A DNA stretch of 53,647 bases from Planctomycetota bacterium (GTDB taxonomy: Bacteria; JAJVIF01; JAPKYR01): the NCBI GenBank assembly GCA_030614715.1, contig JAUWTM010000010.1, positions 1-53,647 of the forward strand. The letters run 5' to 3'. Below, one piece after another: positions 2,139-50,071 of the stretch. The notes under the pieces were generated by a model. It searched no databases and had not been told where the DNA came from. It saw nothing but the letters and a program-made list of their open reading frames with translations. How positions within the stretch are numbered: position 1 is the stretch's first letter; each line of letters begins with the position of its first letter. The translations under genes and the position numbers were made by a program.

Positions 2139-4061
2139 ATGAACCTGAAAACTGCATTCCCTGCCATGTTCCTGACAATAGCTGTCATGATATTGATCGG
2201 GTGCACATCAACTCCCGATTCACCGGTAAACCCCGGCGTTCAGCAATCCGATTCAACGACCCAGTCATCTCGTCAGCTCTGGGGCTTTTACGATGTAGAG
2301 GTCATTCCTGACAACCACGGAAGCGCAGACGTTATTTTCACTCCCCTTCGTTCGACCCAGATACATATGAACGTAGTCGGGCTGATGGAATCCGGCTCGA
2401 CAGGTTCTGCTGTCGGTATCGTACCTCCGGTCTCGTTTGTCGACGGGGTACTCGATATCGATATCAAGCTTACCCATCCGTTCCCGCTGCCCCAGTTTAC
2501 GGGATTCGATGTACGGGGAATTATGATCGGGCATGGGTCGATCGCGGGATTCAGTGAGTCCTTTTTCTATGCAGGCGTCAATGATATCGACCTGCTCAAT
2601 GCCGATGGCCACACGAACCTGTGGAATCCGACCGAGTACACCGGGAACGGGTATGTCGATGGAAAATTAGGCGTACCGGATACAATCGCGAACTACACCG
2701 CCACGCTGAACGGTTATAAATACTTCAGCAACGATCTAACCGCCAACCTGGGCATTTCGGACATGGTCAAGGCTAATCGGGGTGCATTCATAGCCGGCTC
2801 GATGAATGTGCGCCATTACACGATCAAACTCGGGGACCAGGGCCTTACATTCCAGTATGCAATCGATGCGAACTGGTGGTCACCGAATGAACCATACACT
2901 GTACCGGATGACTTCGATGTCGAACAGGCCAATTGCCCTGAGCCTTATCATCTCGATCTGTGGGTCGGGCACGGAATCACGGGTGACGGAGGATCGGCAC
3001 CGTTCCATGTGGACGTCTACGACTGGCAGAAGGATGTTGACACGATCTACCTCGAGGCTCCGCTGCTGATCAACGAATCCATGACACTGACAGGTCCGGA
3101 AGACCTCGGCGATTACGTCCGATTTTCCGGCACGCTCACAAACGAGCTGCTTCCCGCAGCCGATCAGGTAGATATTCTTGTCTACGGTCGTGGTGAAGAT
3201 CCTGTGACATCGATAACATATACTGATTACCACCTTTACCGCCTGCCGACACCGCATATACCTTCGAGCGGTGTCATTATCACGATCCCGGAGGACATCG
3301 CGTACAAAACGATCGGTGTGGAGTACACGTACGGCAGCTCAGGATACGATTACGGTGGAGGTAATCCTGCGCCGATCGATTACTCAGACGCAAACGGGCC
3401 GTGGGACTTCACGCTGGTCCCGAACATTGATTCAGCGACGAGAATTGCGCTTGCACCTACCGATCCGGAGGTAGCCGGGTTCGCCGGTGATTTCAGTGCA
3501 CATGTAACGCACTTTTTCAAGACGCAGATGGGTCTCGGGGGTGACCTGAACGAGGTATACCAGGCTGAATCGCACAACGAGGGTGCAAATATCCAGCGTC
3601 TGTGGGGTATCTACTCATCGGAGGAGATAGTAGAGGGTGTTCAGGCGTTCCCACTCGACCCACCGGTCGATTTCCAGTATCCGCTGACCACATCGACCGA
3701 CTACACGGTTAATGAGAACTACACAATAATTCCGTTCCTGCTGACGCTGACCGTAACATTCTCCCACGAAGGGCTGGGAGAGGGATTCGCGTTCGTCCCG
3801 GTCGAACCGGGGGTTTACGGCTGGGGATGGGACGTCCAGCCGGCACTCCTGACGAGGACGATCGCAGAATTCGAGACAGGCGGGTTACTGGGACAGGGCT
3901 CGATGGGCAAGGCCCTGTTGTATGAATGGATCGCTGATGACGGTACCGGTTACGGCTCTATCTCGTGCGGAAACAGCCCCGATGCAGATCCGAATTTCAA
4001 CGAATCTACGTTTGAGATCACGGGATCAGCGTCGGCAGTGGCATTATATGCGGTAAATTAG
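2139..4061 (+). CDS. large secreted lipoprotein, WG-W-V/FTGFDV paralog family
   Basis: 640 residues, with ATG preceded by AAAGGA eight bases upstream. The signal peptide ends in a lipobox LIGC (Cys22), followed by the tag S-P-V-N-P-G. The conserved domain then shows LWGFYDVEV (about 47-55), PLRSTQ (about 69), THPFP..FTGFDVRGI (about 112-128), LLNADGH..WNPTEY (about 152-167), TLNGYKYF (about 188-195) and FQYAIDANW. A second, weaker RLWGIYSSEE in the C-terminal third (near residue 489) hints at an internal duplication. No catalytic motif is recognised. It is predicted to be anchored in the outer membrane or exposed at the cell surface. It is the only family member here next to housekeeping genes (dapA follows). 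Function unknown. Confidence 0.85.
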   Translation: MNLKTAFPAMFLTIAVMILIGCTSTPDSPVNPGVQQSDSTTQSSRQLWGFYDVEVIPDNHGSADVIFTPLRSTQIHMNVVGLMESGSTGSAVGIVPPVSFVDGVLDIDIKLTHPFPLPQFTGFDVRGIMIGHGSIAGFSESFFYAGVNDIDLLNADGHTNLWNPTEYTGNGYVDGKLGVPDTIANYTATLNGYKYFSNDLTANLGISDMVKANRGAFIAGSMNVRHYTIKLGDQGLTFQYAIDANWWSPNEPYTVPDDFDVEQANCPEPYHLDLWVGHGITGDGGSAPFHVDVYDWQKDVDTIYLEAPLLINESMTLTGPEDLGDYVRFSGTLTNELLPAADQVDILVYGRGEDPVTSITYTDYHLYRLPTPHIPSSGVIITIPEDIAYKTIGVEYTYGSSGYDYGGGNPAPIDYSDANGPWDFTLVPNIDSATRIALAPTDPEVAGFAGDFSAHVTHFFKTQMGLGGDLNEVYQAESHNEGANIQRLWGIYSSEEIVEGVQAFPLDPPVDFQYPLTTSTDYTVNENYTIIPFLLTLTVTFSHEGLGEGFAFVPVEPGVYGWGWDVQPALLTRTIAEFETGGLLGQGSMGKALLYEWIADDGTGYGSISCGNSPDADPNFNESTFEITGSASAVALYAVN

Positions 4062-4216
4062 TCGAAATAAGGCCACACACAAAGTCGAGGATGATTCTAT
4101 CTACCAGGTTGGATTTTAAATGAGCCAATGGGATCATACTTGCACCTTTGGTCCGAATCCTGCATCATTGAATCTCATTAAGACCCTTACCTGTAGCCTG
4201 TAGAGTGGAGGACTGC

Positions 4217-5104: not shown

Positions 5105-5114
5105 AAGAAAAAGA

Positions 5115-5153
5115 GCAGGGAGACCAAACCATAAGGCTCAGGTTCCTCCCTGC
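5115..5153 (+). terminator. hairpin after dapA
   Basis: GCAGGGAG (5115-5122) pairs with CTCCCTGC (5146-5153) across a 23-base loop, eleven bases after the dapA stop. There is no T-run, so it is a weak or factor-dependent terminator candidate, or a processing structure. Confidence 0.4.
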
Positions 5154-20126: not shown

Positions 20127-22940
20127 ATGTCACGCGGTTACTTCACAGCTGTGCTGCTGATCGCAGGTATGTTTGCTGTTGCCTGCTCAAGCGGTACGTC
20201 GTCACCAATTCTACCCGGTACGGGCAATCCGGAACTGACATCCGGATCGACTGGAATTCAAAGGGATGCCACATCCAAAGGCACCTGGGGCATCTGGGAG
20301 GTGTCAATCGACACAGCAACGTGGGATGTGACAATCGTTCCACTTCGGGGGACACAGTTCACTGTTGACGTCGTCACGTTCCTGCAACCACCTGACGGGA
20401 ATCCATCGAATTTATCGATAGATGTAACCGATGTATCCGGGTATTTCGACCAGGGCCTGATCACGGTCCTTGCCGGACTCAGACATCCGTTCGCCGGACT
20501 GGACATGTACACCGGGTACGATGTTTACGGAGCACTCATGTCTCCGGGGTCACTGTTCGGCTCGTACGATGCCGATGTCTCCTACTCAAACGGTGTATCT
20601 GACGTGAAACTGTTGAATCCGGACGGTTACACGCGCTGGATGAACCCGACAGAATTCCCTGACACCGGGACTATCCTTGACTTCACTCCCGGCAACCTGG
20701 GAATCCCGGACATCAGCCTGTTCACCGCGACATTAAACGGGTACAAATACTTCGCCGATAACCTTGATGCCGAGACCGATCTCGGTACCCACTTCGAGCA
20801 GGCGTTAAACGTTGAAAATCGCGGTTACTTCCGTCCCGGCTCATTCAACCGCAGAATATACGAACTCCAGTTCCCGATGGTGGGTGGAGAACCTGCACTG
20901 ATATTCCAGTACGCGGTAATCGCAAGCTGGGTTGATCCCGATCCTGCACTTACGGGCGATCCCTTGCTGATTGATGTACCGGGTGATTTTCCATACGAAG
21001 CTAACGCCGATGAAGCGATCTATATTCGGGCGACGGATGACTCGACATTGTTCTATATAGATGGCAGTGGCGGTGGATCGATCAATCTAGGGCTTGAGGT
21101 TTTCGACTGGGGAGCGATCCAGGATGGGATCTCGGTACCAGATGAGATTCACCAGATCATTGTCGAATCACCGGGAATAATCCCCGGCGACTTCGTATTC
21201 ATCGATCAACCAACCCTGATTGCTAACGCTGTCGATGGCACGACAGTAATATCATCGGTATTCAACGTGGAAATTTCAGGATGCACGCCGATGTCAGGCA
21301 ACGACGCACCTGTGCTTGTAACTGTTGAAAGTTTCGCTCCCGACACATTCGATGTCGGTATTGGTGTACCCAACAACGATGACCGTCTCGCGGGTTATTT
21401 CAGGTTCGACCTCCCGGTGCTGGATATTATTCCACTGTCGATCGAGGTACTTAATCCCAACGGCGGCGAAACCCTGTACATGGGAATGAGCCACGAGATC
21501 ATTTGGGATCCGGGTCCCCCGGGGATCACGAATGTTGACATAGAATGGTCGACGGATAGCTTTGTCGATGATGTCCGGACTATCGTTGAAAACACACCCA
21601 ACAGCGGCTCATATGAGTGGAGACCTATACCTGTCGAGGAAACTACGACCGGCCGTGTCAGGATCAGCAACGCTGACGGCATAGGCTCTGACACATCGGA
21701 TGCGGATTTCTCGATTGTCCTGCCTGTCTGGCTGGCTTTTGAGGACGCATTTACGTTCGATGACACCTCAATTCCGTGGACCGGATACTACCCCTACGAG
21801 CACCAGAGGGATGAAATCTCTCCGGCTATCTCACAGGACACGGATGGCATGGTGCATATCCTGTTCTACGGTGTTAATTCCGGTGTTGGCAGCAGAGACA
21901 TGCAGGCAAGAAGTCAGACCGGTACAAGCTGGGCAGGTCATACCGGCTTTTTCAACTCGAGCAACATTAACTATGGTCGTGCCGATTACGCGAAAATTGC
22001 ACCATCCCATAACGGTCTGAGCTGGGCGTGCTGTAACCTGTCCTGGATCAGCGTTGGCTGGTACTCCGATATCGACCGCATGTGGGGCGGCCCAGGCTAC
22101 TACTGCTTCGACGGACCTGGTGCTCGTTACGGCTATCCCTGGGATCCGAATTACCTGTACCCGGAAATCGCTACGGACTCAGCAGGCTACGTCTTCATGT
22201 TCGGTGACGACGATATCCCGAACCGCATCGACTGGAATAAGACCATCGTGCCCGGATTCACGGCGTACGGCGGTGCCGGACAGGTGACCTCGATTCAACC
22301 GCTTTCAATTAACGGAATGATCAGCAAGTCAAGGTCATGGGCACGCCAGGATACCGGGGTCGCTCTTATTTATTACACGGTTCAGGGTGACATTAAACTA
22401 GCTGAAACGACCGATGCCCCTGCCAACGACACGTGGGATGACTCAGAGGTTATATTCTCACAGGGCACCGATTACCAGGATGCTTTCCATCCCTGCATCA
22501 ATGCGGACTCGAGCGACAGGTTGTTCGCTGCGTGGATCGCACAGGACAACGTCGGTGACTGGTACATACTCGCATCGATGCGTGAATCCGAAGGCGATCC
22601 ATGGTCCGATCCGGTAATTGTAACAACGTCAACCAGCCAGTTCCTGGACATCCACATCTCGTCAGCGCAGGTCGATATGCCGACCGGCACGACTGAAGAT
22701 GTAGCGGTAGTCGGATGGGAAGTCAATGGTGAAGTCGGATCGGCACTGTCACCGCTCGATCTGATGGCATTTCTGCCGGAACAGGACGTCAGCGACACGG
22801 GAGTCAACTGCCTGTCGCCGGATGTCATGTGCCTTACCTCAACAATGGGATACCAGTTCGATGTCCTGTTCTCGTACACAATCGAAGATGGCACGAACTG
22901 GGACATAACGATCAATAACGCTGATTTCGAAACGCCGTAA
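20127..22940 (+). CDS. large lipoprotein, WG-W-V family, with Ig-like and propeller-like C-terminal regions
   Basis: 937 residues, ATG preceded by TGGGGG. The lipobox AVAC (Cys20) is followed by SSGTSSPILPG. The family domain (about 53-430) shows WGIWEV (54-59), PLRGTQ, RHPFAGLDMYTGYDV (119-133), LLNPDGYTRWMNPTEF (162-177), ATLNGYKYFAD (201-211), RGYFRPGS and FQYAVIASW (260-268). Next is a Kre9/Knh1-like Ig fold (about 435-530) recognised from LNPNGGETLYMG..HEIIW and the closing ADFSI. The last 400 residues carry SQDTDGMVHI, ARSQTG and repeated SxDS-type turns, suggesting a sialidase/BNR-like propeller without visible catalytic residues. Its closest relative is the next gene downstream. Predicted cell-surface protein; substrate unknown. 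Confidence 0.85.
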   Translation: MSRGYFTAVLLIAGMFAVACSSGTSSPILPGTGNPELTSGSTGIQRDATSKGTWGIWEVSIDTATWDVTIVPLRGTQFTVDVVTFLQPPDGNPSNLSIDVTDVSGYFDQGLITVLAGLRHPFAGLDMYTGYDVYGALMSPGSLFGSYDADVSYSNGVSDVKLLNPDGYTRWMNPTEFPDTGTILDFTPGNLGIPDISLFTATLNGYKYFADNLDAETDLGTHFEQALNVENRGYFRPGSFNRRIYELQFPMVGGEPALIFQYAVIASWVDPDPALTGDPLLIDVPGDFPYEANADEAIYIRATDDSTLFYIDGSGGGSINLGLEVFDWGAIQDGISVPDEIHQIIVESPGIIPGDFVFIDQPTLIANAVDGTTVISSVFNVEISGCTPMSGNDAPVLVTVESFAPDTFDVGIGVPNNDDRLAGYFRFDLPVLDIIPLSIEVLNPNGGETLYMGMSHEIIWDPGPPGITNVDIEWSTDSFVDDVRTIVENTPNSGSYEWRPIPVEETTTGRVRISNADGIGSDTSDADFSIVLPVWLAFEDAFTFDDTSIPWTGYYPYEHQRDEISPAISQDTDGMVHILFYGVNSGVGSRDMQARSQTGTSWAGHTGFFNSSNINYGRADYAKIAPSHNGLSWACCNLSWISVGWYSDIDRMWGGPGYYCFDGPGARYGYPWDPNYLYPEIATDSAGYVFMFGDDDIPNRIDWNKTIVPGFTAYGGAGQVTSIQPLSINGMISKSRSWARQDTGVALIYYTVQGDIKLAETTDAPANDTWDDSEVIFSQGTDYQDAFHPCINADSSDRLFAAWIAQDNVGDWYILASMRESEGDPWSDPVIVTTSTSQFLDIHISSAQVDMPTGTTEDVAVVGWEVNGEVGSALSPLDLMAFLPEQDVSDTGVNCLSPDVMCLTSTMGYQFDVLFSYTIEDGTNWDITINNADFETP

Positions 22941-33076: not shown

Positions 33077-35368
33077 CTAATATCCATGCCAGTTATCTTT
33101 ATAATCCCTGAGCCATTCCCCAAAGAAAACTCCCTGAGCATCCAGGAAATCATACATGTGTGGTGGCCTACCACCCTCATATTGCCACATCACATTATGC
33201 TTGGGTGTACCATAAAGCGATTCTCGAGGATATGCGGCTAGTTTGTTACAATACCACGGATCATCAGGATAATCTGTGCACCAATCGTTCACCGAGCAAG
33301 TTAGGTCCTGCACCAAGTATTCATCGTTGGGGTTTGAATCCAGTTCTGAAATATCAAAAAGGCGTCCAATCGCCCTGGCTAACAGGTTTGCTGAGGAGAC
33401 ATTATTATAATCTGGCCATTCACCCCATATTTCGGCGCCCATAACGATACATGTATTAATGGAGTTCTGATACTCACTTTGACAAGTCACTGGCCACTCG
33501 TCACTCCAGGCATACATAGACCCTTCAGTATCACCATCTATGCTCCAGACGTAATACAAGCTCAAGCAATCATTGTAACTATACCCGTAGTCAGGATCGT
33601 CAAGTACTAAATTGTGTAATTCAATAGCTTCGTCTTCATCCTCAATGTCCCAATAGTCATTCGACAACTGAATATGGACTGGTTCATTACCCATAATTGA
33701 AAACCTAATACCGTACTGCATGAAGAATTGGTTTAGGTTGTCAATGTCAGTATAAACGTCATCATCAAACCACGTGGGGAACCATTGATACAAATCCCAG
33801 TCATACCAGTCAATGATGTACGCCCTGAGCCATAGTTCTCTCTCAATCGGGTAACCATAATCTGTTGCCCCAATACCCTGCAGCCATGGTTCACCGTTGT
33901 ACTCCAGGACTGGCAGAACGAAATAAGCAATCCGTGCATCGATCAAATCATACATGGGAACAGTCTCTTCAACATATTGCGAAAACCAGCCCTCATTTGT
34001 TTGCCGCGCATTCTCATCGATAAAGAATGACTCTTGTGTATGACCGAGATCTTCGTAATACCAGATCGCTTCATCGAAATCGTAATCGAGCCTGTATACA
34101 TAGTACGTGATCATGGGACTCAATGGATGCCAGGTTAATGTAACCTGATTATAGACCCCATAATCAGTGCCATCAGCAGCCTTAAGATATGGCAGGTAAA
34201 GATCCAGGAATTCTACATCAATACATGCTATTTTATATGCTGTCTGAGATGGCACCTCATAATCCTGAACACTCACCAGGACTTTATACCTGCCCGGTGG
34301 TGCCAGATTGTAATTCGGGATATCAACCTCATACTTCTCATAATACCCGTAAATTGGATCAAAGCCAGAACCTGCATGGGTTGTTGGTAATGTGCCGATA
34401 AATAATTCCGGACATTCCACTATCGGTAGTTGATCATCAGGATCATAGGGAGGAGGGTTATAGGGGTCCAAGTCGTAATCGTAAACTTCGATGGTGAGTT
34501 CGGCACTTCCACCAACATTGTAAATGCCGGGAGTAGGGTCAACGGAGGTCTCGATGTTCCACGGTTCAGGGCAATTAGCATTGCGAGGGAAGTCATCAAA
34601 TGGGTCATAAGGTGGAGTTCCCGGCGCCCAGTTTGCATCTACTGCGAATTCAAATGTGAATGATGTGGGTCCTGTATCAGAAAGATAATAGTGATTCTCG
34701 ACCATGGTTTGATCGAAATAATGACGGTAGTTTATAAGGTGGGAGGTGCCGGTGAAGAAATACTTGTACCCGTTCAGGTTAGCAGTGGTTTCTGGGGAAT
34801 CCCATAATGGCGTAAAACCATTCGCATTACATAGTTCGATAACATCCGGGCCTTGCAATGCATCGGCAACGATCATCGATGAAGCCGGGAATAAATGACT
34901 GCCGTTAAACATGGCAATCCCCCTAACATCGAATCCAGTAAATTCTGGACCAAGCGGATTTGTAAGCTGTACACGGATTACATCTACGAGTATCGTTTCA
35001 CCGGGATGTCCCTCAGGGTCCCATTCCCACTCGTAATCCTGCAATCCAAGTAAGAACCAGATGCAGCCCAAGGGACAAATCTCGGGATTCATTAGTAGAC
35101 CAGTGATGTCGAAATGCGCCTCCAGGCTCCTGAGCGGTACAGCCATTACTTCATTAAGCGCGGTATCTACGTGGACTTGCCAGTACCCCCAGAGGTGGCG
35201 ACCATCAGTATTGGCCGCTTGTTCTCGATCTCCGTTGAGATCACCTACTATGGTGCTCGTCGGATCGGTGACTGCAGGTGCTGCCGGATCATCTGATCCA
35301 CTAGAACAACCACACGTCAATAATAGTGCAATAAGAATTACACCCAAGAGACGATACTTGAGTATCAT
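33077..35368 (-). CDS. WG-W-V family lipoprotein with degenerate zincin-like C-terminal region
   Basis: 763 residues, AGGAGGAGAGAC before ATG. Lipobox LTCGC (Cys21), then SSGSDDPAAP. Family blocks are present in a more diverged form: LWGYWQVHV, PLRS, EFTGFDVRGI, LCNANGFTPLWDSPET, NLNGYKYFFTG, FEFAVDANW. A fibronectin-like region follows. Near residue 665-680 the sequence LLARAIGRLFDIS aligns by eye with the zinc protease signature of the form L-A-H-E-x-G-H-L-F-G, with both histidines and the glutamate lost, following NTCIVMGAEIWGEW, which resembles the strand before that helix. The C-terminus may thus be a pseudo-metalloprotease (inference). Codon use is conspicuously AT-rich relative to its neighbours, a sign of transfer or relaxed selection. 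Confidence 0.8.
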   Translation of the reverse strand: MILKYRLLGVILIALLLTCGCSSGSDDPAAPAVTDPTSTIVGDLNGDREQAANTDGRHLWGYWQVHVDTALNEVMAVPLRSLEAHFDITGLLMNPEICPLGCIWFLLGLQDYEWEWDPEGHPGETILVDVIRVQLTNPLGPEFTGFDVRGIAMFNGSHLFPASSMIVADALQGPDVIELCNANGFTPLWDSPETTANLNGYKYFFTGTSHLINYRHYFDQTMVENHYYLSDTGPTSFTFEFAVDANWAPGTPPYDPFDDFPRNANCPEPWNIETSVDPTPGIYNVGGSAELTIEVYDYDLDPYNPPPYDPDDQLPIVECPELFIGTLPTTHAGSGFDPIYGYYEKYEVDIPNYNLAPPGRYKVLVSVQDYEVPSQTAYKIACIDVEFLDLYLPYLKAADGTDYGVYNQVTLTWHPLSPMITYYVYRLDYDFDEAIWYYEDLGHTQESFFIDENARQTNEGWFSQYVEETVPMYDLIDARIAYFVLPVLEYNGEPWLQGIGATDYGYPIERELWLRAYIIDWYDWDLYQWFPTWFDDDVYTDIDNLNQFFMQYGIRFSIMGNEPVHIQLSNDYWDIEDEDEAIELHNLVLDDPDYGYSYNDCLSLYYVWSIDGDTEGSMYAWSDEWPVTCQSEYQNSINTCIVMGAEIWGEWPDYNNVSSANLLARAIGRLFDISELDSNPNDEYLVQDLTCSVNDWCTDYPDDPWYCNKLAAYPRESLYGTPKHNVMWQYEGGRPPHMYDFLDAQGVFFGEWLRDYKDNWHGY

Positions 35369-35868: not shown

Positions 35869-38172
35869 TTAACCACCTACCTGTGTGAGCGATGAAACCA
35901 TCGGGAATCGATGGTATGCCACCTCGTAGCTTTCGACTGTTGCGATGTCTTTATATGTCTGGACCGTAACTCCGAGTGTATTGGGACCGCCGAGTGGAAA
36001 CACGAACGCAACCACCAGCAACGACCTACTGTTACCGGATGAAACGCCGATTCCAAGGTCGGTGAACCTGACCCTGTTCAGACCGGTGACGTCCACGCTT
36101 GAAATCAGTTCGTCCAGACCGGAATCGTAGAATCCGTTGCCTGTTGTGTCCTCGTAGAGATCGATCTGAGCAATCGTGGCAAGCGGCTGGGTGCCGTAGA
36201 GCTGGAAATTGATGCCATCGATTGTTGTCAGCCCGTTCGAGGAACAATCCAGCCTGAGCAGGGCAACTTCACCACCTGCGGGACTTGCAGCGGGAGCGAT
36301 GTCCACACCGATCACGTCGAAAACGGACTCGTTTTCAAGTGTCAGATCGTAGAGCGATGAATCGCCGACATTATTCGAGTGCACGCTCAGATACAGGGTC
36401 TGGCCCGCGATGACATCGATGTCGATTGACTCGACATTGTTCCATGGATCGTTAGCTATCGTTGAATCTGCAAGCAGATTGGTCATAGCCGGATCGGAAT
36501 AAAGCGCCAGGTCGAGGTCCTCGCCCCAGGTATAGATGTAGCATGAGATGGTGAGAGGACCGTCGCCGACCACTTCGATTTTATAGAGGTCCTCGGGATC
36601 GTGGTACGGATTTCCCGGCACGTCATGGATGGTGTCATGGAAACGCGCCGATGGCAGGTTGACCGGTACGAATCCCATCGGGTCTTCGAGCAGCGAGTAC
36701 CGGTCGGAACCGTACACGGCGCGGACCGCGTTCACCCTGCCCTCGCCCGACTGGTCGTCCCAGCCGAGTGAGTGGATGTCATCGCATGTGTAACGCAGGC
36801 GGTCGCGAAGCCACGCAGCGTTCTCGCCGGGATTGAAGGTCTTGACCAGCGCCACCACGCCAGCAGCCATCGGGCATGCACAGGACGTTCCGCCAAAGAA
36901 GAAATCGTCATTACCGTCCCAGTACGCGCTGTAATGTTCACCGTACGTGGTTGTGTACTTGTCGCCGTACGCGGAGATTTCAAGCTGGGTACCCCAGGTC
37001 GATCCCCACGGGAATCCGGATGCCGCACTGATACGCTGCTCCACGATACGCTGGTTGGCGTCGTTAAACGCGCAGCAGGCTGCGACAGCCATGACGGAGT
37101 CGTGACCGGACGGCCAGTGAGCGTCGTTCGTGCCGCTATTTCCAGCAGAACCGAGCAGGACGACGCCGTTGCCGTCATCGTAGGCATAGGAGCAGGCTTC
37201 ATCCATGGCGATTGAATAGGTTGTCGATCCAAACGACATACTGGCGATGTCGGCGTCGTTGTCTTTCGCGTAGTGCAGTGCGTTTACAACGCTGCTGACG
37301 TAAGCATTAAAATTCCAGCCGTTCAGGTTGACCCTGAGCACCATGACCTTCACGCCCGGAGCGATTCCGGTAAGTCCGCGGTTGTTATCTATCTGTGCCG
37401 CGACGATACCGGCGCAGGCCGTGCCGTGGTACGGATAACCGCCAGTGTCGTGCGGACCATTGTCGCTGTAATGAAAATCCCACCCGAACCAGTCGTCCAC
37501 GTATCCGTTGGCGTCGTCGTCGATTCCGTTGTTGGATATTTCGTCGTTGTTGTACCAGAGGCGGTAGAAAAGGTCCTCGTGGTCATAGAGGATGCCGGTG
37601 TCTATAACAGCGACTACGATGTCCTCTGTGCCGATCGATTCGTTCCAGACGATCGGAGCACCGGATTTTGCGGGACCCCACTGGTCGAAGACGTTGTCGC
37701 GCGGGTCATTCCCCGCGTCGCCGCGTTCCCACATCGGATCGTTGGGAACGTAAGGTGCATCCTCGAATGTGAGGATGTAATTCGGCTCAGCCCAACGCAC
37801 CCTCGAATCGTTGTTCAGCTTGTCAACAATGTCGGTGACGATCTGTCCCTGAGGAATTTTCAGACGGTACATCGGACCCCAGGATACGTCGCTGATATCG
37901 ATCACTCTCAGGTCGAATTCAGCAGCCCAGATAATGAGATCGGGATTGGACAGCGGCTCGTTCAGAGTGAGAAGGACCTCACCCGGAGCATAAAGGCCGT
38001 CACCGGAGTCACCCTCCATGGGATCGAAGATCGGACCGCCGGTGGATCGATCAGCGGTGTCGGGTGTTACCGGGGAATTTCCGCCGGAACAGGAAACGAG
38101 GAACAGGAGGATTAAAAACGCGGCCAGAATTACGGACCGCCTTCGGAGACCAAACAGAATTATGGATGTCAT
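35869..38172 (-). CDS. lipoprotein subtilisin-like protease with PPC domain
   Basis: 767 residues, GAGG before ATG. A long signal peptide ends LVSC (Cys28), followed by the shared tag SGGNSPVTPD. Residues about 60-140 form a prodomain (APGEVLLTLNEPLS...VRWAEPNYIL). The triad is intact: Asp191 (VAVIDTGIL), His249 (YHGTACAGIV), Ser430 (GGTSCACPMAAG). After the catalytic domain a pre-peptidase C-terminal (PPC) beta-sandwich is visible (EDLYKIEVVGDGPLTISCYIY...GQTLYLSVHS) and a further beta domain. It is a surface-anchored protease, in contrast to the secreted one at 30357. The calcium-site-like NDEISNNGIDDDANGYVDD insert at 208-227 is characteristic of thermolysin-processed subtilases. Confidence 0.93.
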   Translation of the reverse strand: MTSIILFGLRRRSVILAAFLILLFLVSCSGGNSPVTPDTADRSTGGPIFDPMEGDSGDGLYAPGEVLLTLNEPLSNPDLIIWAAEFDLRVIDISDVSWGPMYRLKIPQGQIVTDIVDKLNNDSRVRWAEPNYILTFEDAPYVPNDPMWERGDAGNDPRDNVFDQWGPAKSGAPIVWNESIGTEDIVVAVIDTGILYDHEDLFYRLWYNNDEISNNGIDDDANGYVDDWFGWDFHYSDNGPHDTGGYPYHGTACAGIVAAQIDNNRGLTGIAPGVKVMVLRVNLNGWNFNAYVSSVVNALHYAKDNDADIASMSFGSTTYSIAMDEACSYAYDDGNGVVLLGSAGNSGTNDAHWPSGHDSVMAVAACCAFNDANQRIVEQRISAASGFPWGSTWGTQLEISAYGDKYTTTYGEHYSAYWDGNDDFFFGGTSCACPMAAGVVALVKTFNPGENAAWLRDRLRYTCDDIHSLGWDDQSGEGRVNAVRAVYGSDRYSLLEDPMGFVPVNLPSARFHDTIHDVPGNPYHDPEDLYKIEVVGDGPLTISCYIYTWGEDLDLALYSDPAMTNLLADSTIANDPWNNVESIDIDVIAGQTLYLSVHSNNVGDSSLYDLTLENESVFDVIGVDIAPAASPAGGEVALLRLDCSSNGLTTIDGINFQLYGTQPLATIAQIDLYEDTTGNGFYDSGLDELISSVDVTGLNRVRFTDLGIGVSSGNSRSLLVVAFVFPLGGPNTLGVTVQTYKDIATVESYEVAYHRFPMVSSLTQVGG

Positions 38173-39397: not shown

Positions 39398-41272
39398 ATG
39401 AACAAACCTTCGCTGGGATTTCTACTAATCCCTGCACTAATCTGGGCATTCTTCGGCTGCTCGAACCCAAATCCGGTCACACCGAAGGTTTCAGGCTCAA
39501 GGTCGGCCGACTCCGCACCGCTTGTGTGGGGGATCTGGGATGTGTTGATAACTGATGACGGAACTGTCGAAGCGGTTCCGTTACGTCATGCAGATTTCGC
39601 CTTGAATGTAACAGGGATGATCGACAGCGTCCCGGGATGTCTCGGATTGTCGGTCGATAACATCTACCATCACACCGGTTACACCGATATCACGCTCGAT
39701 ATCAGCATCACGCACCCTTTCCCGGACGCCACAAAGTTCACGGGATTCGATGTGATGGGTGTGCTTCTCGGCAACGGATCGGTCGCGCATCCGCACGATC
39801 CTGATCTCTATATGGCCGGACCGGATGACATCCAGCTTAGAAACGCTGACGGCTGGACGCGATGGATGAACTACCCTGAATTCCTCGGCACGGATCCTGA
39901 AATGCTGGGATTCATCTACGGAGAAATGGGCACGCAGGGACTCTCACCGTCCGCGATAATCAACGGGTACCGTTATTTCGCCGACGACCTTGAACCGAAA
40001 GTACACCCGATAGAGTACTTAACAAACAATCCCGCGAACCGGGGAATGTTCCAGGCGGGATCGACGAACACCCGTCACTATAACATTCGATTCCCCGACT
40101 CAGCTGGATTCAGCTTCCAGTACGCAGTGATCTCCCGCTGGGAGCAGAACATCCACAGCCCCGATCCACCCGAATACGTGCCAGATGACTTTCCATTGAC
40201 CGCAAACGCCCGGGAATCGGTGGCATTTGCCATACTCGGCACGACGTCCGACTGGTACTGGGATGGCAGCTCGGGTGGTGGAAATTTCAGGGCTGATATC
40301 TCGGTTGGCAACTGGCACGTGCAGCCCGGACCCGGGAATGTCGTGGACGATTACGTGATCTCGCTTTATTCCGATGCATGGTCAGGTGCAGCTCATCCGG
40401 ACATGACCGCAACGAGTTACGGTCCAAACCACTGCATCTTCGCGGTAGACATCCCGGCATCACCGACCGCTGCAGGACCACTGGATATCTGGGTCAGCAT
40501 CGAGCAAACAGGTGAAACCTACGCAAACCCCTTCGGCGTACCGACACTCGCTGAAGATGAACCCCTTGTTGCGCACTTCTACTGGCTGGAAATCGTCCCG
40601 CTCATCAGTGAACAGTGGGAGCCGCCGACCGATCACGATCCACGGTTCCTTTTCATCCATCATTCGACCGGCGAGGGATTCCTGTACGACGGCGGGATGT
40701 GGACCAAGCTCGAAGCGGAGGGATTCGATGTGCACAACAGGACGTACGGCGATGGCTGGGTCGGGGATAACACCGATCCCGAACACTGGCCGACCACTTT
40801 CACGGATTATTACGACGACATGATCTCGTGGGAGCTCGAAGCAGGGCAGTACTACGATATCGTCGCGTTCAAATCGTGTTTCCCGGCCTCCTATATCTAT
40901 GACCAGGCGATGCTCGATGAATACAAGAGCTATTACAACGCCGTGAAGACAGTCACGCAGCTGCATCCCGAGACGCTGTTCATTCCGTACACTACACCAC
41001 CACTCGTGCCGAATGAGACAGAACCCGCGATCGCCGCAAGGGCGCGTGAGTTCGCCGACTGGCTGACGGGAGCGTACGATGAGGGAGAATTTAACCTCGT
41101 GGCTTACGACGTGTTTGACGTTCTCGCGGGTGATGATCCGATGAGCGGCGACTTCAACTGCCTGCGCTACGAGTACCAGGATGATCCGTGGGATTCACAT
41201 CCGAACGTCGCGGGAAGTACCGCTGTAGGGAATGATTTCTCTGCGTGGCTGTCTGACTTAGTCTGGAACTGA
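39398..41272 (+). CDS. WG-W-V family lipoprotein with C-terminal SGNH-like hydrolase domain
   Basis: 624 residues, GAGAGGTG before ATG. Lipobox FFGC (Cys21), then SNPNPVTPKV. The family domain shows VWGIWDVLI, PLRHADFALNVTG, THPFPDATKFTGFDVMGV, LRNADGWTRWMNYPEF, IINGYRYFADDL, FQYAVISRW and PDDFPLTAN. From residue about 415 a second domain begins FLFIHHSTGEGFLYDGG with candidate nucleophile Ser423, and ends with DSHPNVAGSTAVGNDF, giving candidate Asp599 and His601. The HPN-x-x-G ending is typical of SGNH hydrolases, but Asp-x-His spacing is shorter than the usual Asp-x-x-His, so catalysis is an inference. The next gene contains the same domain alone. Confidence 0.85.
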   Translation: MNKPSLGFLLIPALIWAFFGCSNPNPVTPKVSGSRSADSAPLVWGIWDVLITDDGTVEAVPLRHADFALNVTGMIDSVPGCLGLSVDNIYHHTGYTDITLDISITHPFPDATKFTGFDVMGVLLGNGSVAHPHDPDLYMAGPDDIQLRNADGWTRWMNYPEFLGTDPEMLGFIYGEMGTQGLSPSAIINGYRYFADDLEPKVHPIEYLTNNPANRGMFQAGSTNTRHYNIRFPDSAGFSFQYAVISRWEQNIHSPDPPEYVPDDFPLTANARESVAFAILGTTSDWYWDGSSGGGNFRADISVGNWHVQPGPGNVVDDYVISLYSDAWSGAAHPDMTATSYGPNHCIFAVDIPASPTAAGPLDIWVSIEQTGETYANPFGVPTLAEDEPLVAHFYWLEIVPLISEQWEPPTDHDPRFLFIHHSTGEGFLYDGGMWTKLEAEGFDVHNRTYGDGWVGDNTDPEHWPTTFTDYYDDMISWELEAGQYYDIVAFKSCFPASYIYDQAMLDEYKSYYNAVKTVTQLHPETLFIPYTTPPLVPNETEPAIAARAREFADWLTGAYDEGEFNLVAYDVFDVLAGDDPMSGDFNCLRYEYQDDPWDSHPNVAGSTAVGNDFSAWLSDLVWN

Positions 41273-41341
41273 AAATTAACGGGACATAAATGAGGGATTG
41301 AATGTCGATGAGCAAAATTCATAATGAACGAGAGGGGCGAC

Positions 41342-42130
41342 ATGCGCAACTTCAAGCTCACATTCATCTTCATTCTTGCCCTCTGCACGATCTGCCTTGG
41401 CTGCTCGTGTACAGGAGCCGCAAACGCCTGGAGTCCTGACACAAACCAGGACAACAATCCATCGGGGAACAACCCGGGCAGCACCGCAGACGGGCTGAAA
41501 TTCCTTTTCATCCATCATTCAACAGGCGAGGGATTCCTGTATGACGGTGGTATGTACGACCTGCTGGTCGACGCCGGGTTCGACGTGCACACGCGGACGT
41601 ACGACGACGGGTGGGTCGGTGACAACACCGATCCCGAGCACTGGCCGACAACCTTCACCAGTCACTTTGACGACATGATGACGTGGGACCTTCCAGCCGG
41701 AGAGCGTTACAATATCATTGCATTCAAATCATGCTTCCCGGCGTCCTACATCGAAGATTCCGCGATGCTGAACGAGTACAGGGATTACTACAACACGGTC
41801 AAGTCGGTTGTCGAGCAGCACCCCGGGACCCTGTTCATTCCGTTCACAACCCCACCGCTGGTACCGACCTACACAGAACCCTCTGTTGCAGCACGTGCGC
41901 GTGAATTCGCGAACTGGCTGACAGGGCCGTACGATGACGGGATCGACAATCTCGCGGCTTACGATGTGTTCGACGTACTCGCGGGAGATAATTCCGGGAG
42001 CGGTGATTATAACTGCCTGCGGTATTCCTACCAGTACGATCAATGGGATTCTCACCCAAACGAGGCAGGCTGCACAGCTGTAGCGAATGATTTTGTCGAC
42101 TGGCTTGTGTCCCTTGGCTGGGGCTCGTAA
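41342..42130 (+). CDS. lipoprotein consisting of the same SGNH-like domain
   Basis: 262 residues from ATG 41342, which has GAGAGGGG just upstream; an earlier ATG at 41324 is less likely. Lipobox CLGC (Cys21), then a short asparagine- and proline-rich linker. The rest aligns with the C-terminal domain of the preceding protein over almost its full length: FLFIHHSTGEGFLYDGG (Ser60), GDGWVGDNTDPEHWPTTFT-equivalent, AFKSCFPASYI, FIPFTTPPLVP, AARAREFANWLTG and DSHPNEAG (Asp236, His238). It arose by domain duplication with loss, or the large protein by fusion. Only 69 bases separate the two genes, so they are probably cotranscribed. Confidence 0.85.
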   Translation: MRNFKLTFIFILALCTICLGCSCTGAANAWSPDTNQDNNPSGNNPGSTADGLKFLFIHHSTGEGFLYDGGMYDLLVDAGFDVHTRTYDDGWVGDNTDPEHWPTTFTSHFDDMMTWDLPAGERYNIIAFKSCFPASYIEDSAMLNEYRDYYNTVKSVVEQHPGTLFIPFTTPPLVPTYTEPSVAARAREFANWLTGPYDDGIDNLAAYDVFDVLAGDNSGSGDYNCLRYSYQYDQWDSHPNEAGCTAVANDFVDWLVSLGWGS

Positions 42131-44603: not shown

Positions 44604-47594
44604 TTACCAAAGCCTTACGATTGTGAGGTCGAGGGCACCGTTGGCGGAAATGTAGTAGTTTTCGTGGATAACCTTGCCCTGCCCGTTGGTATAGTTCGCG
44701 TCCCAGTCGAACGCTCTCGGTATGTCAACAAGACTCATCCACCAGCCGAAATCGGGCACTTCGGGCAGCTCATTCAGATCGAAAATCGCAAGCTCTCCCC
44801 AGTTGGAACCACCAAGTTTTCCCTTGGGAACGTAGAGATACGATCCGTTAATAATTTTTCTAAACGCGAATGCGTAAACGATGAATGGATCGTCGGTCAG
44901 CCAGTTGTCTACATCGAATTTAACTGTGTACTCCGGGTACAAACCCGGGAGCGAATCGTTCCTGTCCAGGATGTACGGGCTGTTTACGTCGATCCAGCCA
45001 CCCGACGCGTCGAGGCCGGTCCTCGTCTGCGATGTCGGAGGCCAGCCTGAATTTAGGTCGTACCTTGTGAGCGAGTAGTTGTTTCGTGCCCATAATGCAT
45101 CCTGGTAGATTTCCACGTCCCATGTGGGGCCGTCAGAGCCGTCGAGAGGATTAACCGTTCCAAGATGTGTCGGGCTGTATGGATCGGTGAGTTCCCAGAC
45201 CATGATCCCGTCATCGCCTGCAGCAGCGAATGTATTGTTCCTGAGATCGATTGTACGAATGGCGGTGTATGCAAGTTCACCTATCTTGAGCGGGGAGAAT
45301 GGATCGGCGAGGTCGAAGATCTCCACACCTGTGCCTTCAGTGGCAGAATATGCAACCAGGCCGCCTGATGCCTCGTACAGCCTTATATCCCGGGCTTTCC
45401 CGGATGTCTGTACCCATGTGTACTGTTCAGGTGGATCGGGCAAGTTCGAGATGTCGGCAATCAGTATGCCCATGTTATTTTCCGCAATAGCAACGATGTC
45501 TCCAGATGCGTCAACAGCCTGCGAATGGCTGTCGTCGTAATAATCTATTACACCGATGATATTGCTGAGATCATCGGAATCCGCTATAACGACAGCGCCA
45601 AATGTCTCAGGGTAGATTGCACCCCATTTACCGTTTGCAGATATAAATAGATCACCGGTTATTTCTGGTGTCGATGCATAGTACCAGTCATTAAGGCCAT
45701 TGCCGTCCCAGTAGATATCTACGATGGCAGGATCAAGTGGATCGCTTATGTCAAGGATAACAGTAGCTTGATTATGGCTGGGATCATACCCTGGCAGGTA
45801 GTAATAACCGTTTTCCCTTAGCTTTCCATCTCCCAATATATATCCCTCTCCTTTTGGGAACACATTGAATGGCTCAATTTCCTGCCAGCCATCGAGCTCA
45901 GTGTAATGCCATCGCAGCACATCAGCTTCAGTGTCAGAGAGGAATAGCACATCGTTGTAGACTTTAGCCCACCGACGCCAGTTCGGCTGGTCCATCACAA
46001 TCTGGTACTCCGGTTCGTCCTCAATGCTGACCGGCCTTCTGAAAATCTCTATGACGTTAGATTCAAAGGTATCCTCGTATCCCATCAGCACAAACCAGTC
46101 TTCATTTGCATCAAGTACGTAATCGCTGTGATCGTATGTAACTGAGGCGATATCGGTATAAACTGGGTTGTACGGATCACTACAGTCCAAAAGCACATAA
46201 TAAAACTGGTCATACTGACCAGAAGATCCTGCTCTCATTGCTAAGGTTGTGCCAAATATTCGCTCGTATATTCCTCCATTAAAACCGGTTCCGGGTGGTC
46301 CCCCATTTATACTTGCCCAGTTGTACAAATCAGGAAATGGATCAACACTCAGATCATAAAAATACGTTCTCGTGTCCAGTGTTATTTCGGATAACTGTCC
46401 AGTAAACATCCCGAACCCAGGGCCTACAACCCAAGTTGTTGAGCCAGCTCCAGGATACAAGCCCTTAATTAGTTCCATATGTGATCCCATCGGCTTCGGA
46501 TCGGACGGATCGGAGATATCGAATGCCATCCACCCCTCGTTGTAGAAATAAGCCCACAACGTTGTCCCGTTCACATACACCGGATAGCCCGGATACGGCG
46601 GGTAGTCGGGTACGATGTTCCAGACCAGCTCAAGCTGCGGATTGATCGGAATCCCCTCATCCCCGACAGCCACATCCAGATATCCATAAAAGCCAGGATC
46701 ACCGGTCGACGTCTCGACGCTCACAAGCAGCCTGTACTTCCCGACACCCGCTCCGTTCGGGTTGGTGAACTGCCCCTCCCAGACATCCTCGTACTGCATG
46801 GATTCAGTCAACGCCACTACTCCCAGCCCGAATGCTGAGGCATCCACATACACAGCCGTCACGTCGTCCTGAAAGTCCCTGACCTCGATGAAATATTCAT
46901 ACGTGCCGGTGCCATCGATTACCAGTTGCCCGATCGGTCCGTGTTGCAAGTCCTCCCTGATCCTCCACGGCTCTACGGGTTCGGAAGGCCACGACGTCTC
47001 GATCAAATAATCGATCTCAACGATGTCCCCGGCACCGTTCGGCAGGAAGATCGTCCAGTCCCTCGAGATCTCGGAGTGACCTTCGACCGGATCGCCGCTG
47101 TCCTGCAGGTTACGAACCGGATCGAGATCGGGACCGACTCCATCCTCGTACCACGCATGATACCCATCCGGTTGGACCAGCACGAACGACTCGTCGGGAA
47201 ACAGCAGAACCGCCCTTGGAACGAACACTGTCAGCCCTGTCGGATTCGTCACGGTGACAGTGAAATCGAGACGTCCTGTCAATTCGTCCCAATGTGTACC
47301 GGAAAATTCGAGGCAGTAATCACATTCAGGGGGGAGAAGGAAATTCTTGACTTCCCACCAGGCTGTGGATGTCCTTAACGGAACAAGCTCACCGGTTTCA
47401 CGGTAGAAGGTCAGGCTCCAGGCATCGACTAACTTCCAATCCGAGCCATCTGGCAGTCCGGTTACGATCTCAAGAGATTCACGAGGTCCCGAAAGGCTGC
47501 TCCCCGAATCCGGCATCACCGGCGAATCGCTGACCCCACCCCCGGAACATCCGAGGAGGAGACATGCAAGAGATATGAGGAATATGTATCTCAT
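44604..47594 (-). CDS. lipoprotein with LVIVD propeller, distant WG-W-V relative
   Basis: 996 residues; no strong ribosome site. Lipobox LLGC (Cys16), then SGGGVSDSPVMPD, the shared tag. The first 310 residues are beta-rich and keep weak family blocks (DAWSLTFYRETGELVPLRTSTAWWEVKNFL, GRLDFTVTVTNP, VLVQPDGYHAWYEDG, IDYLIETSW). The remaining 680 residues carry LVIVD-like repeats (WMAFDISDPSDPKPMG; TVILDISDPLDPAIVD; GIMVWELTDPYSPTHLG; GVEIFDLADPFSPLKIG), a propeller. The end DLTIVRLW resembles that of the 27410 protein. Base composition shifts: 45.5-46.5 kb is clearly more AT-rich than 46.6-47.5 kb, suggesting a mosaic gene. Confidence 0.85.
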   Translation of the reverse strand: MRYIFLISLACLLLGCSGGGVSDSPVMPDSGSSLSGPRESLEIVTGLPDGSDWKLVDAWSLTFYRETGELVPLRTSTAWWEVKNFLLPPECDYCLEFSGTHWDELTGRLDFTVTVTNPTGLTVFVPRAVLLFPDESFVLVQPDGYHAWYEDGVGPDLDPVRNLQDSGDPVEGHSEISRDWTIFLPNGAGDIVEIDYLIETSWPSEPVEPWRIREDLQHGPIGQLVIDGTGTYEYFIEVRDFQDDVTAVYVDASAFGLGVVALTESMQYEDVWEGQFTNPNGAGVGKYRLLVSVETSTGDPGFYGYLDVAVGDEGIPINPQLELVWNIVPDYPPYPGYPVYVNGTTLWAYFYNEGWMAFDISDPSDPKPMGSHMELIKGLYPGAGSTTWVVGPGFGMFTGQLSEITLDTRTYFYDLSVDPFPDLYNWASINGGPPGTGFNGGIYERIFGTTLAMRAGSSGQYDQFYYVLLDCSDPYNPVYTDIASVTYDHSDYVLDANEDWFVLMGYEDTFESNVIEIFRRPVSIEDEPEYQIVMDQPNWRRWAKVYNDVLFLSDTEADVLRWHYTELDGWQEIEPFNVFPKGEGYILGDGKLRENGYYYLPGYDPSHNQATVILDISDPLDPAIVDIYWDGNGLNDWYYASTPEITGDLFISANGKWGAIYPETFGAVVIADSDDLSNIIGVIDYYDDSHSQAVDASGDIVAIAENNMGILIADISNLPDPPEQYTWVQTSGKARDIRLYEASGGLVAYSATEGTGVEIFDLADPFSPLKIGELAYTAIRTIDLRNNTFAAAGDDGIMVWELTDPYSPTHLGTVNPLDGSDGPTWDVEIYQDALWARNNYSLTRYDLNSGWPPTSQTRTGLDASGGWIDVNSPYILDRNDSLPGLYPEYTVKFDVDNWLTDDPFIVYAFAFRKIINGSYLYVPKGKLGGSNWGELAIFDLNELPEVPDFGWWMSLVDIPRAFDWDANYTNGQGKVIHENYYISANGALDLTIVRLW

Positions 47595-48145: not shown

Positions 48146-50071
48146 TTACTCAAGGGGCAGCGGGTACATAAGGACCGCTTTCTCATCGTATTCGGTTGCC
48201 ACGAGAGTCAACACGTGCGGGTCTTCAGTAAGCCACTGGCCGCAGGTGAAGTAGTGATACACTTCGACACCATCCGTGAGCCAGTGCCACGTGATGTTGC
48301 TGGTCCAACCGTCCGCCGACTCAGGAGTCGCGCCACCACCGTACTCCATAAGCATTCCGAGCCAGTCGAAGATGTTGTCGAGGCTCGGGACGTGCATGTT
48401 GGAGCTCTTCTCGCACATGAAGATCAGGATTCCGCCGTTCTCAATGAATTCCTGCATGTCGTGTGCCTCTTCCTGTGTGAACGGTGGATCGAGTGGTGTG
48501 TTGACGTTCGACCAGATCACGGCTAGAACAACACGGCTTCCACCTGGGTCGAAATAGTCATTGTGGGTGCGCTCGAACGAGTAGCCGAGGGACGCGCATG
48601 TGTCCGCTAATGCGTCTGAATTCTGACCCCAGACGTAGGAGGTTGTTTTCCCCTCCCAGCTCTGGATGTGGGTGAAATCGTTGTAGTAGCCCTCGACGTT
48701 CTGGCTGATAATGTTGCTGATCAGGAGCTGATTCTGTGAGTCGCTTGCACACTGGTAACGCATTGTCGCGCACCAGTCCGGGACGAAGTAACAGTACGCA
48801 TACTCACCGGTCGGTGTCAGGTTCGTGACCGGAACGTCACCAATGCAGTATGCAGCAAGGGGGGCATCCGGATACACCCACATGCTCGTGTCGCCCTCGA
48901 TCTGGGGCTCGAAAGAGTCAGGATCTGTGCTTTCGACCGTGATCAACATCTGCTGCCCGTCGAGAGCAGTCGGGAACATGTCCTCGATAAATATCCTGTA
49001 GGTTGCCTGGGTATCGTGACCGCTCGAAACGAACTCCATAGTGTCCCTGACATCAACCGGGAACTCAAACAGAGTTGGTGACTCGATCCAGACATGTGAA
49101 ATCTCATCGAGGACGTTTCCACCGACAGCCTGCCAGTCGCCAATGGTAAGGAGGAACTGGAGATTGCCACCCGCAACGTATTCATCGACGTAGTACGGGA
49201 TGTCCTCGTATTCCTCGATCTTGACCATGTAGGGTTCCTGCATGTTTGCCATAGAGTCGAACGCTTCAATAGGATATTCAGGCGCAAAGTCAGGATCGGG
49301 TCTCGACCAGTTTGCCGATATCGAGTACTTAAACCGGTACATGGGAGACTGGGTGTCGTCGAACTTGATCCTGTACATCCGCTTTGAAAACCCGTCGATC
49401 GCCGGGAACGTGCATCGCTGCTCGTAATCCATCTGGTAGTACGGTTGCCGGGGATCAAGCGACGGGGTATGGATCTTGTACGGGCAGATGGTCTGCGTGG
49501 AAGTGTAATTTGGTACTGCATAGTGACCTTCCGTATATCCGAAGAGCAGCCCGTAGTTGGTGAATTCAACCTGGTTGAACCAACGAGTAAAGCCGTCCGG
49601 GTTGGTCATATGTATTCCGTCCGGTGGGTTAATCACGGCACTCGGGTCGTATTTTCCGATGGCGCCGCCGTCAGCATGAATGATTCCCCGGACGTCGAAA
49701 CCCCTGAAGAGGGTCTTGCCCGGGAACGGGTGACGCAAAGTGACATCCATTGTGATGAGGCCGGTTAAAATGTCGGATTCCGCCATATTAATGGACATCC
49801 CTACCAGCTCGATTGGCGATATCGGGGGCTGGAGGAACCTCGTTACGTTGGCGGTGAAATCTCCTGATCTCTCCGGGACCAATTCAATCTCACCAGAATT
49901 TGCATCGATCGTGACATCCCACGTGCCCCAGCACATTGACTGGGAGACGGAAGCGTCCCTGATCGTGTCAGTGAGTCCGGGATCGACCGGCACTGAATCC
50001 CTGCTGCACGCCGTAACGGCAAGCAGAAGCAGTAAAACCATGAAGCATAGTTTTGCGGATTGGGAAAGCAT
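48146..50071 (-). CDS. WG-W-V family lipoprotein with C-terminal glutaminase-like (ThuA/DUF4350-like) domain
   Basis: 641 residues from ATG 50071, with GAGGT eight bases upstream; a TTG six bases earlier is less likely. Lipobox VTAC (Cys22), then SRDSVPVDPG. Family blocks: CWGTWDVTI, PERSGDFTANVTRFLQPP, LRHPFPGKTLFRGFDVRGI, MTNPDGFTRWFNQVEF, RMYRIKFDDT, FKYSISANW and EAFDSMAN. The LNGYKYF block is lost. The C-terminal 190 residues look like an alpha/beta class I glutamine-amidotransferase-like fold: LLISNIISQNVEGYYNDF, TSYVWGQNSDALADTCASLGY, VVLAVIWSN, then MQEFIENGGILIFMCEKSSN. No catalytic Cys-His-Glu triad is assured. A promoter-like GATAAAAT lies upstream near 50119-50130 on the minus strand. 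Confidence 0.83.
   Translation of the reverse strand: MLSQSAKLCFMVLLLLLAVTACSRDSVPVDPGLTDTIRDASVSQSMCWGTWDVTIDANSGEIELVPERSGDFTANVTRFLQPPISPIELVGMSINMAESDILTGLITMDVTLRHPFPGKTLFRGFDVRGIIHADGGAIGKYDPSAVINPPDGIHMTNPDGFTRWFNQVEFTNYGLLFGYTEGHYAVPNYTSTQTICPYKIHTPSLDPRQPYYQMDYEQRCTFPAIDGFSKRMYRIKFDDTQSPMYRFKYSISANWSRPDPDFAPEYPIEAFDSMANMQEPYMVKIEEYEDIPYYVDEYVAGGNLQFLLTIGDWQAVGGNVLDEISHVWIESPTLFEFPVDVRDTMEFVSSGHDTQATYRIFIEDMFPTALDGQQMLITVESTDPDSFEPQIEGDTSMWVYPDAPLAAYCIGDVPVTNLTPTGEYAYCYFVPDWCATMRYQCASDSQNQLLISNIISQNVEGYYNDFTHIQSWEGKTTSYVWGQNSDALADTCASLGYSFERTHNDYFDPGGSRVVLAVIWSNVNTPLDPPFTQEEAHDMQEFIENGGILIFMCEKSSNMHVPSLDNIFDWLGMLMEYGGGATPESADGWTSNITWHWLTDGVEVYHYFTCGQWLTEDPHVLTLVATEYDEKAVLMYPLPLE

Follow-up and report, generated by a model that had tools for sequence, protein, structure and literature searches.

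Genes of the window

The window (the whole analysed stretch of 53,647 nucleotides) contains seven genes with a common N-terminal domain of 250-390 residues, followed by a C-terminal part that we call the payload. All seven open reading frames listed in an earlier note on this DNA were present at the starts it gave; for the gene at 48146-50077, a TTG lies two codons upstream of ATG 50071, the start used in that note. The features are the following:

2253..3263, plus strand: N-domain of gene 2139-4061 (E 5.7e-118, alignment)
3264..4061, plus strand: payload of gene 2139, no Pfam match
20268..21428, plus strand: N-domain of gene 20127-22940 (E 6.4e-161)
21429..22940, plus strand: payload of 20127, PNGGE-type Ig segment (by eye) and propeller-like repeat
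23256..24419, plus strand: N-domain of gene 23118-25952 (E 1.5e-162), the copy chosen for folding
24420..25952, plus strand: payload of 23118, aligning with that of 20127
33077..34213, minus strand: payload of 33077, zincin-like pseudo-enzyme
34214..35224, minus strand: N-domain of gene 33077-35368 (E 3.6e-105)
39500..40600, plus strand: N-domain of gene 39398-41272 (E 1.4e-138)
40601..41272, plus strand: payload of 39398, possibly SGNH-like (putative label), no Pfam match, relatives exist
41324..42130, plus strand: lone lipoprotein-like gene, 39398-type payload without N-domain
44604..46652, minus strand: payload of 44604, LVIVD beta-propeller (PF08309, E 1.1e-5)
46653..47468, minus strand: compact divergent domain in gene 44604-47594 (E 1.7e-121, from a subfamily profile partly built on 44604 itself)
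48146..48817, minus strand: payload of 48146, about 220 aa, common to a few other members, no Pfam match
48818..49960, minus strand: N-domain of gene 48146-50077 (E 2.1e-156)

The neighbouring paralogues 20127 and 23118 have N-domains 49% identical. The payload of 2139 is 29-35% identical to the C-terminal ends of several other members, and that of 39398 also occurs free-standing beside it, in the lone gene (72.6% identity over 208 aa). Among the partner names proposed earlier, the pseudo-zincin was supported: the payload of 33077 has LLARA where its relatives L255 and L150 have HENGH/HELGH. SGNH-like and glutaminase-like gained no Pfam support and are still guesses, while the propeller of 20127 matched BNR_2, only below the Pfam cut-off (E 0.006). 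The PF08309 match in 44604 was above its cut-off (25.2 vs 20.2 bits).

Around the copies lie ordinary genes, including an export protein, a T2SS ATPase and an ABC transporter, and a barrel-like neighbour at 50195 matched no family. None of the ten window neighbours scanned points to a common partner.

The shared N-terminal domain

In the alignment of the six main copies, the domain displays the blocks WG-x-(W/Y)-(D/E)-V, PLR and HPFPG..FTGFDVRG, then LLNADGYTRWMNPTEF, and after it NGYKYFAD, FQYAV..W and P.DFP..AN. The order is kept in all six, with gaps and substitutions in some. Identity to the N-domain of 20127 ranges from 22 to 49% across the other six of the window.

Gene 44604 lacks several blocks. 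Profile comparison with hhalign placed it in the family, as the distant member the earlier note had taken it for: it aligned to a profile built without it (probability 97.1, E 7.6e-11, 247 columns), and its subfamily profile aligned to the family (probability 100, E 7.5e-39). The WMNPTEF block is present in the alignment of the main copies, but its wording is not universal across the family: a 45-member subfamily has NPDGYT-x-LYNP-x-T instead, and the corresponding block of 30 compact members is NPD-x-YT. The more stable core of this block type is N-x-D-(G/D)-x-T.

The first reading of the DNA had found no named family for the domain, and the searches agreed. None of 58 shared-domain sequences matched Pfam or PHROGs, the domain had no NCBIfam match in any of the seven window proteins, and PDB (solved-structure) sequences gave no match up to E 1. 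The sole Pfam match inside the domain of a window protein had E 0.14, far below the cut-off. Thus, placement in a known Pfam family, named at the outset as evidence against the proposal, was not found, nor did we find the family in the profile libraries searched (Pfam, NCBIfam and PHROGs).

Copy number and distribution

The genome of the window (4.29 Mb in 254 contigs, 87% complete, 0.61% contamination) holds at least 265 places of the family on 121 of its contigs, as the union of three profile searches. Within this genome, 150 scored matches out of 314 candidates had E-values from 1.5e-162 to 7.2e-53, far beyond chance. When 52 places from the listing of a fourth search were checked against the union, none was new. 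The 246 genes or pieces read amount to 609,678 bp, or 14.2% of the assembly. About one seventh of a bacterial genome is devoted to one protein family.

All five genomes of the phylum examined contained the family, with 51 to 265 matches each. Six copies inspected in two distant genomes (G003 and G004) all had the lipoprotein-first layout described below; one more locus of G003 (L296), like two loci from outside (L297, L298), had no family-profile match at E 1e-3. A draft assembly such as this one could give rise to a family by misassembly or wrong binning, or Ig-like folds could resemble each other by chance. We consider this explanation negligible: contamination is low, the window copies sit among ordinary genes, the near-complete G003 (4 contigs, 99% complete) has 51 matches, the same family occurs in MAGs obtained independently, from Lac Pavin sediment and from a cold-seep catalogue, and the E-values speak against chance.

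Outside the phylum, none of 381 genomes had a full-length match at E ≤ 1e-5 (386 genomes sampled, five of them in the phylum, with at most seven candidates scored per genome). Two of the 381 matched the profile only over a short stretch at its Ig-like end, at positions 172-241 (E 1.4e-6) and 154-242 (E 2.9e-6) of 245. A smaller search found relatives in none of 55 outside genomes, and the plasmid collection gave no match. The 17 pattern matches on viral contigs were not relatives. The pattern scan of genome contigs reaches close relatives only.

Lipoprotein signal and architecture

A lipobox was found in 144 of the 153 open reading frames with a complete 5' end; a stricter rule was positive in 175 of 246 and missed 71. 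Nearly all copies whose start is complete have the N-terminal signal and lipobox cysteine of bacterial lipoproteins. The linker from this cysteine to the domain has a median of 27 residues, is often C-S-G-G-x-x-P-V-x-P-like and is low in charge. Of 249 profile hits, 248 have the domain start no later than residue 150, and none of the 249 has two copies in one protein. The layout is then lipoprotein signal, short linker, one domain copy and a paralogue-specific payload. Omp85 was present in all five phylum genomes, which indicates a diderm cell.

The copies are dispersed: 161 of the 265 have no same-strand family neighbour within 4.5 kb. Of 174 starts, 53 (30%) have the exact word TATAAT no more than 100 bp away, vs 10 of 71 controls.

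Payload exchange and retention

Payloads comprise beta-propellers, PKD/Ig arrays, beta-helix-like repeats and a few enzyme-like or pseudo-enzyme folds. Among 144 C-terminal ends, the payload families were PKD_4 (20), LVIVD (18), SBBP (13), PQQ_2 (11) and Kre9_KNH (11).

One gene, L168, is a clear chimera. Its N-domain is 76% identical to that of L153, their payloads are unrelated, and the DNA similarity between them stops at the domain boundary; the payload of L168 scores 587 bits to that of L210, vs 29% identity between their N-domains. More widely, 151 of the 475 N-domain pairs above 50% identity have payloads lacking detectable similarity. These results support the proposal of an expanded paralogous lipoprotein family with a common N-domain and exchangeable C-terminal modules. 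In this family, nature has run a domain-swapping experiment on a large scale.

Payload class follows the N-domain tree as well. From 249 profile hits we retained 236 (at least 60 bits and a span of at least 200), of which 209 had a payload of at least 120 aa and 161 of those could be labelled (classes of at least five). On a FastTree tree of the N-domains, these 161 genes in six classes required 43 payload-class changes vs a shuffled mean of 96.9, the lowest of 60 shuffles being 88. The number of changes varies with the definition of the classes: 37 vs 85.2 when two plainly similar classes were merged, 37 vs 67.7 in another scheme, and 11 vs 39.6 with the coarsest classes. In addition, 31 of 45 relatives (the comparable ones among 48 with a payload) had the same payload as the window-genome copy that was their best N-domain partner. 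Therefore, many payloads have been held over long times.

This bears on whether the many diverged paralogues serve as a reservoir of surface variants, for antigenic variation or self/non-self recognition. Such a repertoire would suit a very large, diversified and dispersed family of likely envelope proteins, but we regard it as quite unlikely. Judged by divergence, the paralogues are old, as 20,374 of the 21,708 pairs of N-domains are less than 40% identical, and the retained payloads weaken it further. Only three DNA tracts above 85% identity (at least 150 bp) were found among the fetched copies, excluding tracts above 99.9% and 300 bp, which concerned 17 locus pairs that are overlapping stretches of one contig.

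Predicted structure and conserved insertion

We predicted the structure of one copy (23118), whole and first half; the kinship of the other copies comes from alignments. The model (pLDDT 84.7, pTM 0.83) presents two Ig-like sandwiches with a large insertion in the first, all-beta except for short helices. Among known folds, the nearest comparisons are the transglutaminase C-terminal beta-barrel and Ig-like folds, the beta-barrel being a candidate for the second sandwich. The insertion (101 of 381 residues) contains 22 of the 43 columns above 3 bits, as well as the WMNPTEF and NGYKYF blocks; part of its conservation is an effect of retrieval, as one of the two patterns used to fetch relatives was derived from one of these blocks. 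The insertion may be a docking site for a common surface partner, and the two blocks may bind a ligand or partner, as the earlier note suggested. Alternatively, binding could be the task of the shared domain itself, as in an adhesin that depends on carbohydrate or calcium, with the payloads as accessories, which we consider possible but rather unlikely.

SusD is helical, unlike the predicted domain. This is one of the reasons why we find it very improbable that the copies are SusD/BtuG-type nutrient-uptake lipoproteins, each serving as the lid of a TonB-dependent transporter and binding its substrate. Sus-like lipoproteins are described as abundant on the Bacteroidetes surface and involved in carbohydrate acquisition (PMC5080379). 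Here, each of the five genomes has only one TonB-receptor plug domain above the cut-off vs 51-265 family matches, and none of the ten neighbours scanned, the barrel-like 50195 included, matched a receptor family. The single plug domain per genome largely refutes Sus-type uptake through paired transporters.

A proposed lipid-anchored display domain

We propose, with a probability of roughly 0.6, that the shared domain is a phylum-specific domain for display, tethered to the outer membrane by a lipid anchor. At least 265 copies carry exchangeable rear parts, and therefore the family looks like a general extracellular display platform. The proteins would be exported by Sec and lipidated, and would then presumably follow the Lol route to the outer membrane. 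The shared domain would lie next to the membrane, where it could set spacing and orientation or dock, through its conserved insertion, on a common surface partner. Propellers, PKD/Ig rods, beta-helices and occasional enzymes would be held outward, their targets for binding or cleavage being polymers, particles or other cells. Joining a secreted payload to the ready-made anchor would create new surface proteins. Over half of the copies are solitary and a share of the copies has an ordinary promoter word, so joint expression of many is possible; the paralogues may be co-expressed and form a mixed coat rather than being switched singly.

Anchoring that faces the periplasm is equally compatible with the sequences. 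A bolder version, which we put forward tentatively as the less likely one, is that the domain is the hallmark of a hitherto unseen, phylum-wide surface-display system. In it, a common domain for docking or export, lipid-anchored and preceded by the S-G-G-x-x-P-V-x-P linker, would present hundreds of interchangeable payloads as a mixed coat on the outside of the outer membrane.

The family marks a poorly sampled phylum (five genomes), and its ready-made anchor could be useful for display engineering.

Comparison with known systems

PE/PPE proteins of mycobacteria are not lipid-anchored and use type VII secretion. By description and architecture our family resembles them: both are giant, lineage-restricted families with a conserved N-domain followed by variable C-terminal modules. 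M. tuberculosis has 169 PE/PPE genes, about 7-10% of its coding capacity, and in a published model the N-domain, which is helical, delivers the C-terminal modules (PMC12209268). With 265 places and about 14% of the assembly, the present family exceeds them in both number and share, and its domain, behind a lipoprotein signal, is predicted to be all-beta except for short helices.

The family is also like the proteins with the type IX sorting domain of Bacteroidota, in that one shared domain is joined to many payloads. The type IX domain, common to many unrelated cargo domains, is C-terminal and cleaved, whereas the shared domain here is N-terminal (248 of 249 hits). The SprA_N profile matched none of the five phylum genomes, and a control profile was likewise silent everywhere.

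Finally, Bacteroidota surface lipoproteins carry a short N-terminal export signal, K-(D/E)2 or Q-A-(D/E)2 (PMC5080379). The proteins described here are similar as probable outer-membrane lipoproteins with a short N-terminal segment after the cysteine. They differ in that this segment is often S-G-G-x-x-P-V-x-P-like, with little charge, and leads into a large folded domain. If surface-exposed, they would point to a route for protein display or lipoprotein export that differs from the routes of Bacteroidota and of mycobacteria.

Shared domain and copy number

The seven genes named in the earlier note proved to be genuine ORFs, and the common N-terminal domain claimed for them was found, spanning about 250-390 residues. 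Kinship is plain in six, the domains of the other five main window copies being 26-49% identical to that of gene 20127. Gene 44604, the seventh window member, is a compact divergent copy; we count it in the family because it aligns across 247 columns of a profile built without it (E 7.6e-11) and its subfamily aligns with the main family by profile (E 7.5e-39). A cysteine pair (C-x-x-C, e.g. P-C-T-D-C-L) is kept in the first sandwich of many members (44604-47594 and those of alignment A9) and is missing from the main window form. The statement that no named family fits also holds: nothing in Pfam, NCBIfam, PHROGs or PDB sequences matched the domain above cut-off. The domain family is new to these libraries, and its design is a variant of a known one.

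The genome to which the window belongs, as contig 22, measures 4.29 Mb in 254 contigs, with 87% completeness and 0.6% contamination. There the first profile gave at least 150 matches (150 of 314 candidates scored, all matching), and two more subfamily profiles added 93 and 22 places, which brings the total to 265 places, spread over 121 contigs. Comparing 52 of the places listed by a fourth profile with these 265 turned up no new one. Together, the 246 genes or pieces above 40 bits in the fetched stretches cover 609,678 bp, or 14.2% of the assembly, counted as stop-to-stop frames, some truncated at stretch ends, and with some of the last 22 places left out. A same-strand family neighbour is absent at 161 places, and there are 35 runs of 2 to 7 members. 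At one fetched locus, a short stub (L168:257-568; 104 residues, stop to stop) adjoins an intact copy.

Distribution across genomes

All five genomes of the phylum examined carry the family: 265 places in the window genome and at least 142, 119, 51, and at least 121 matches in G001 to G004, these being matches rather than curated genes, and those of G001 and G004 coming from the best 150 candidates scored. Six copies inspected in the distant G003 and G004 run from lipoprotein signal through linker and domain to more C-terminal sequence; a third G003 locus did not match the family profile. With a cut-off of E <= 1e-5, full-length matches were absent from all 381 genomes outside the phylum, two of which gave a short match only at the Ig-like end of the profile. 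In genome contigs, a pattern scan that reaches close relatives only returned 43 loci, every one of them in either a MAG from Lac Pavin sediment or a cold-seep MAG labelled Planctomycetota. No member was found in the viral contigs and plasmids searched.

Payloads and module exchange

Two sets of 72 C-terminal parts were scanned; among these 144, payloads matched PKD_4 (20), LVIVD (18), SBBP (13), PQQ_2 (11) and Kre9_KNH (11), with single matches such as Redoxin; by eye, some look like parallel beta-helices. The HExxH zincin motif is retained in three members and gone in gene 33077, in support of the pseudo-zincin partner named in the earlier note.

Window genes discussed for their payloads
33077-34213: zincin-like pseudo-enzyme payload; LLARA where relatives L255 and L150 have HENGH and HELGH
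41324-42130: own lipobox, no N-domain; corresponds to the payload of 39398 (72.6% over 208 residues)

On a FastTree of 209 N-domains, with 161 genes labelled in six payload classes, 43 class changes were needed, against a shuffled mean of 96.9 (lowest of 60: 88) and a possible minimum of 5. These classes are clusters of repetitive proteins, two of them with similar payloads; merging those two gave 37 changes vs 85 shuffled, a second merging 37 vs 68, and the coarsest 11 vs 40. Under every scheme, payloads are in part inherited along with the domain and in part exchanged. The N-domains of the chimera L168:2321-5011 and of L153:2134-4050 are 76% identical and their payloads unrelated; DNA similarity between the two genes spans the domain and stops where it stops. 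The payload of the chimera scores 587 bits against that of L210:315-2867, the two N-domains being 29% identical. Payload similarity was undetectable in 151 of the 475 N-domain pairs more than 50% identical. Between genomes, relative and best N-domain partner had a common payload in 31 of 45 cases and different ones in 14. The lipoprotein-like 41324 lies beside 39398, so that one module stands in adjacent versions, with and without the shared domain. Thus, the class changes, the chimera and this stand-alone gene bear out the claim of interchangeable C-terminal modules. That the family is an antigen-switching cassette is unlikely, since its paralogues diverged long ago and few conversion tracts occur among the fetched copies.

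Neighbouring window genes

A Subtilase lipoprotein (35869-38172) without the shared domain has the identical C-S-G-G-N-S-P-V-T-P linker, which suggests that this motif is common to a broader group of lipoproteins. A PKD and LVIVD-propeller protein (27410-29890), also without the domain, has a lipoprotein-like N-terminus and a payload 22-28% identical to those of several family members. The product of 50195-53341, beta-barrel-like by eye and with no Pfam match, adjoins an ABC transporter ATPase and a MacB/FtsX-like permease.

Proposed role and known parallels

The cell envelope is diderm, Omp85 being present in all five genomes of the phylum examined. The shared domain would act as a membrane-proximal display or docking domain, the simplest reading given the lipid anchor, short linker, single fixed domain and freely chosen binding-type payloads. 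We infer an outer-face location, and a partner for the conserved insertion in the first sandwich. Sus-type uptake was rejected on transporter number, with one plug domain over cut-off per genome. Of 174 family starts, 53 have an exact TATAAT no more than 100 bp away, vs 10 of 71 controls, which fits ordinary promoters for part of the family genes.

T9SS cargo has a similar design, but its sorting domain is C-terminal, whereas the domain fixed here is N-terminal. In sequence, the linker is unlike the Bacteroidota lipoprotein export signal described in PMC5080379. The PE/PPE proteins, according to PMC12209268, comprise 169 genes and about 7-10% of coding capacity, with an N-domain proposed to deliver C-terminal modules. 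Their N-domain is helical, whereas ours is predicted all-beta apart from short helices, which argues against membership; the overall design is nevertheless similar.
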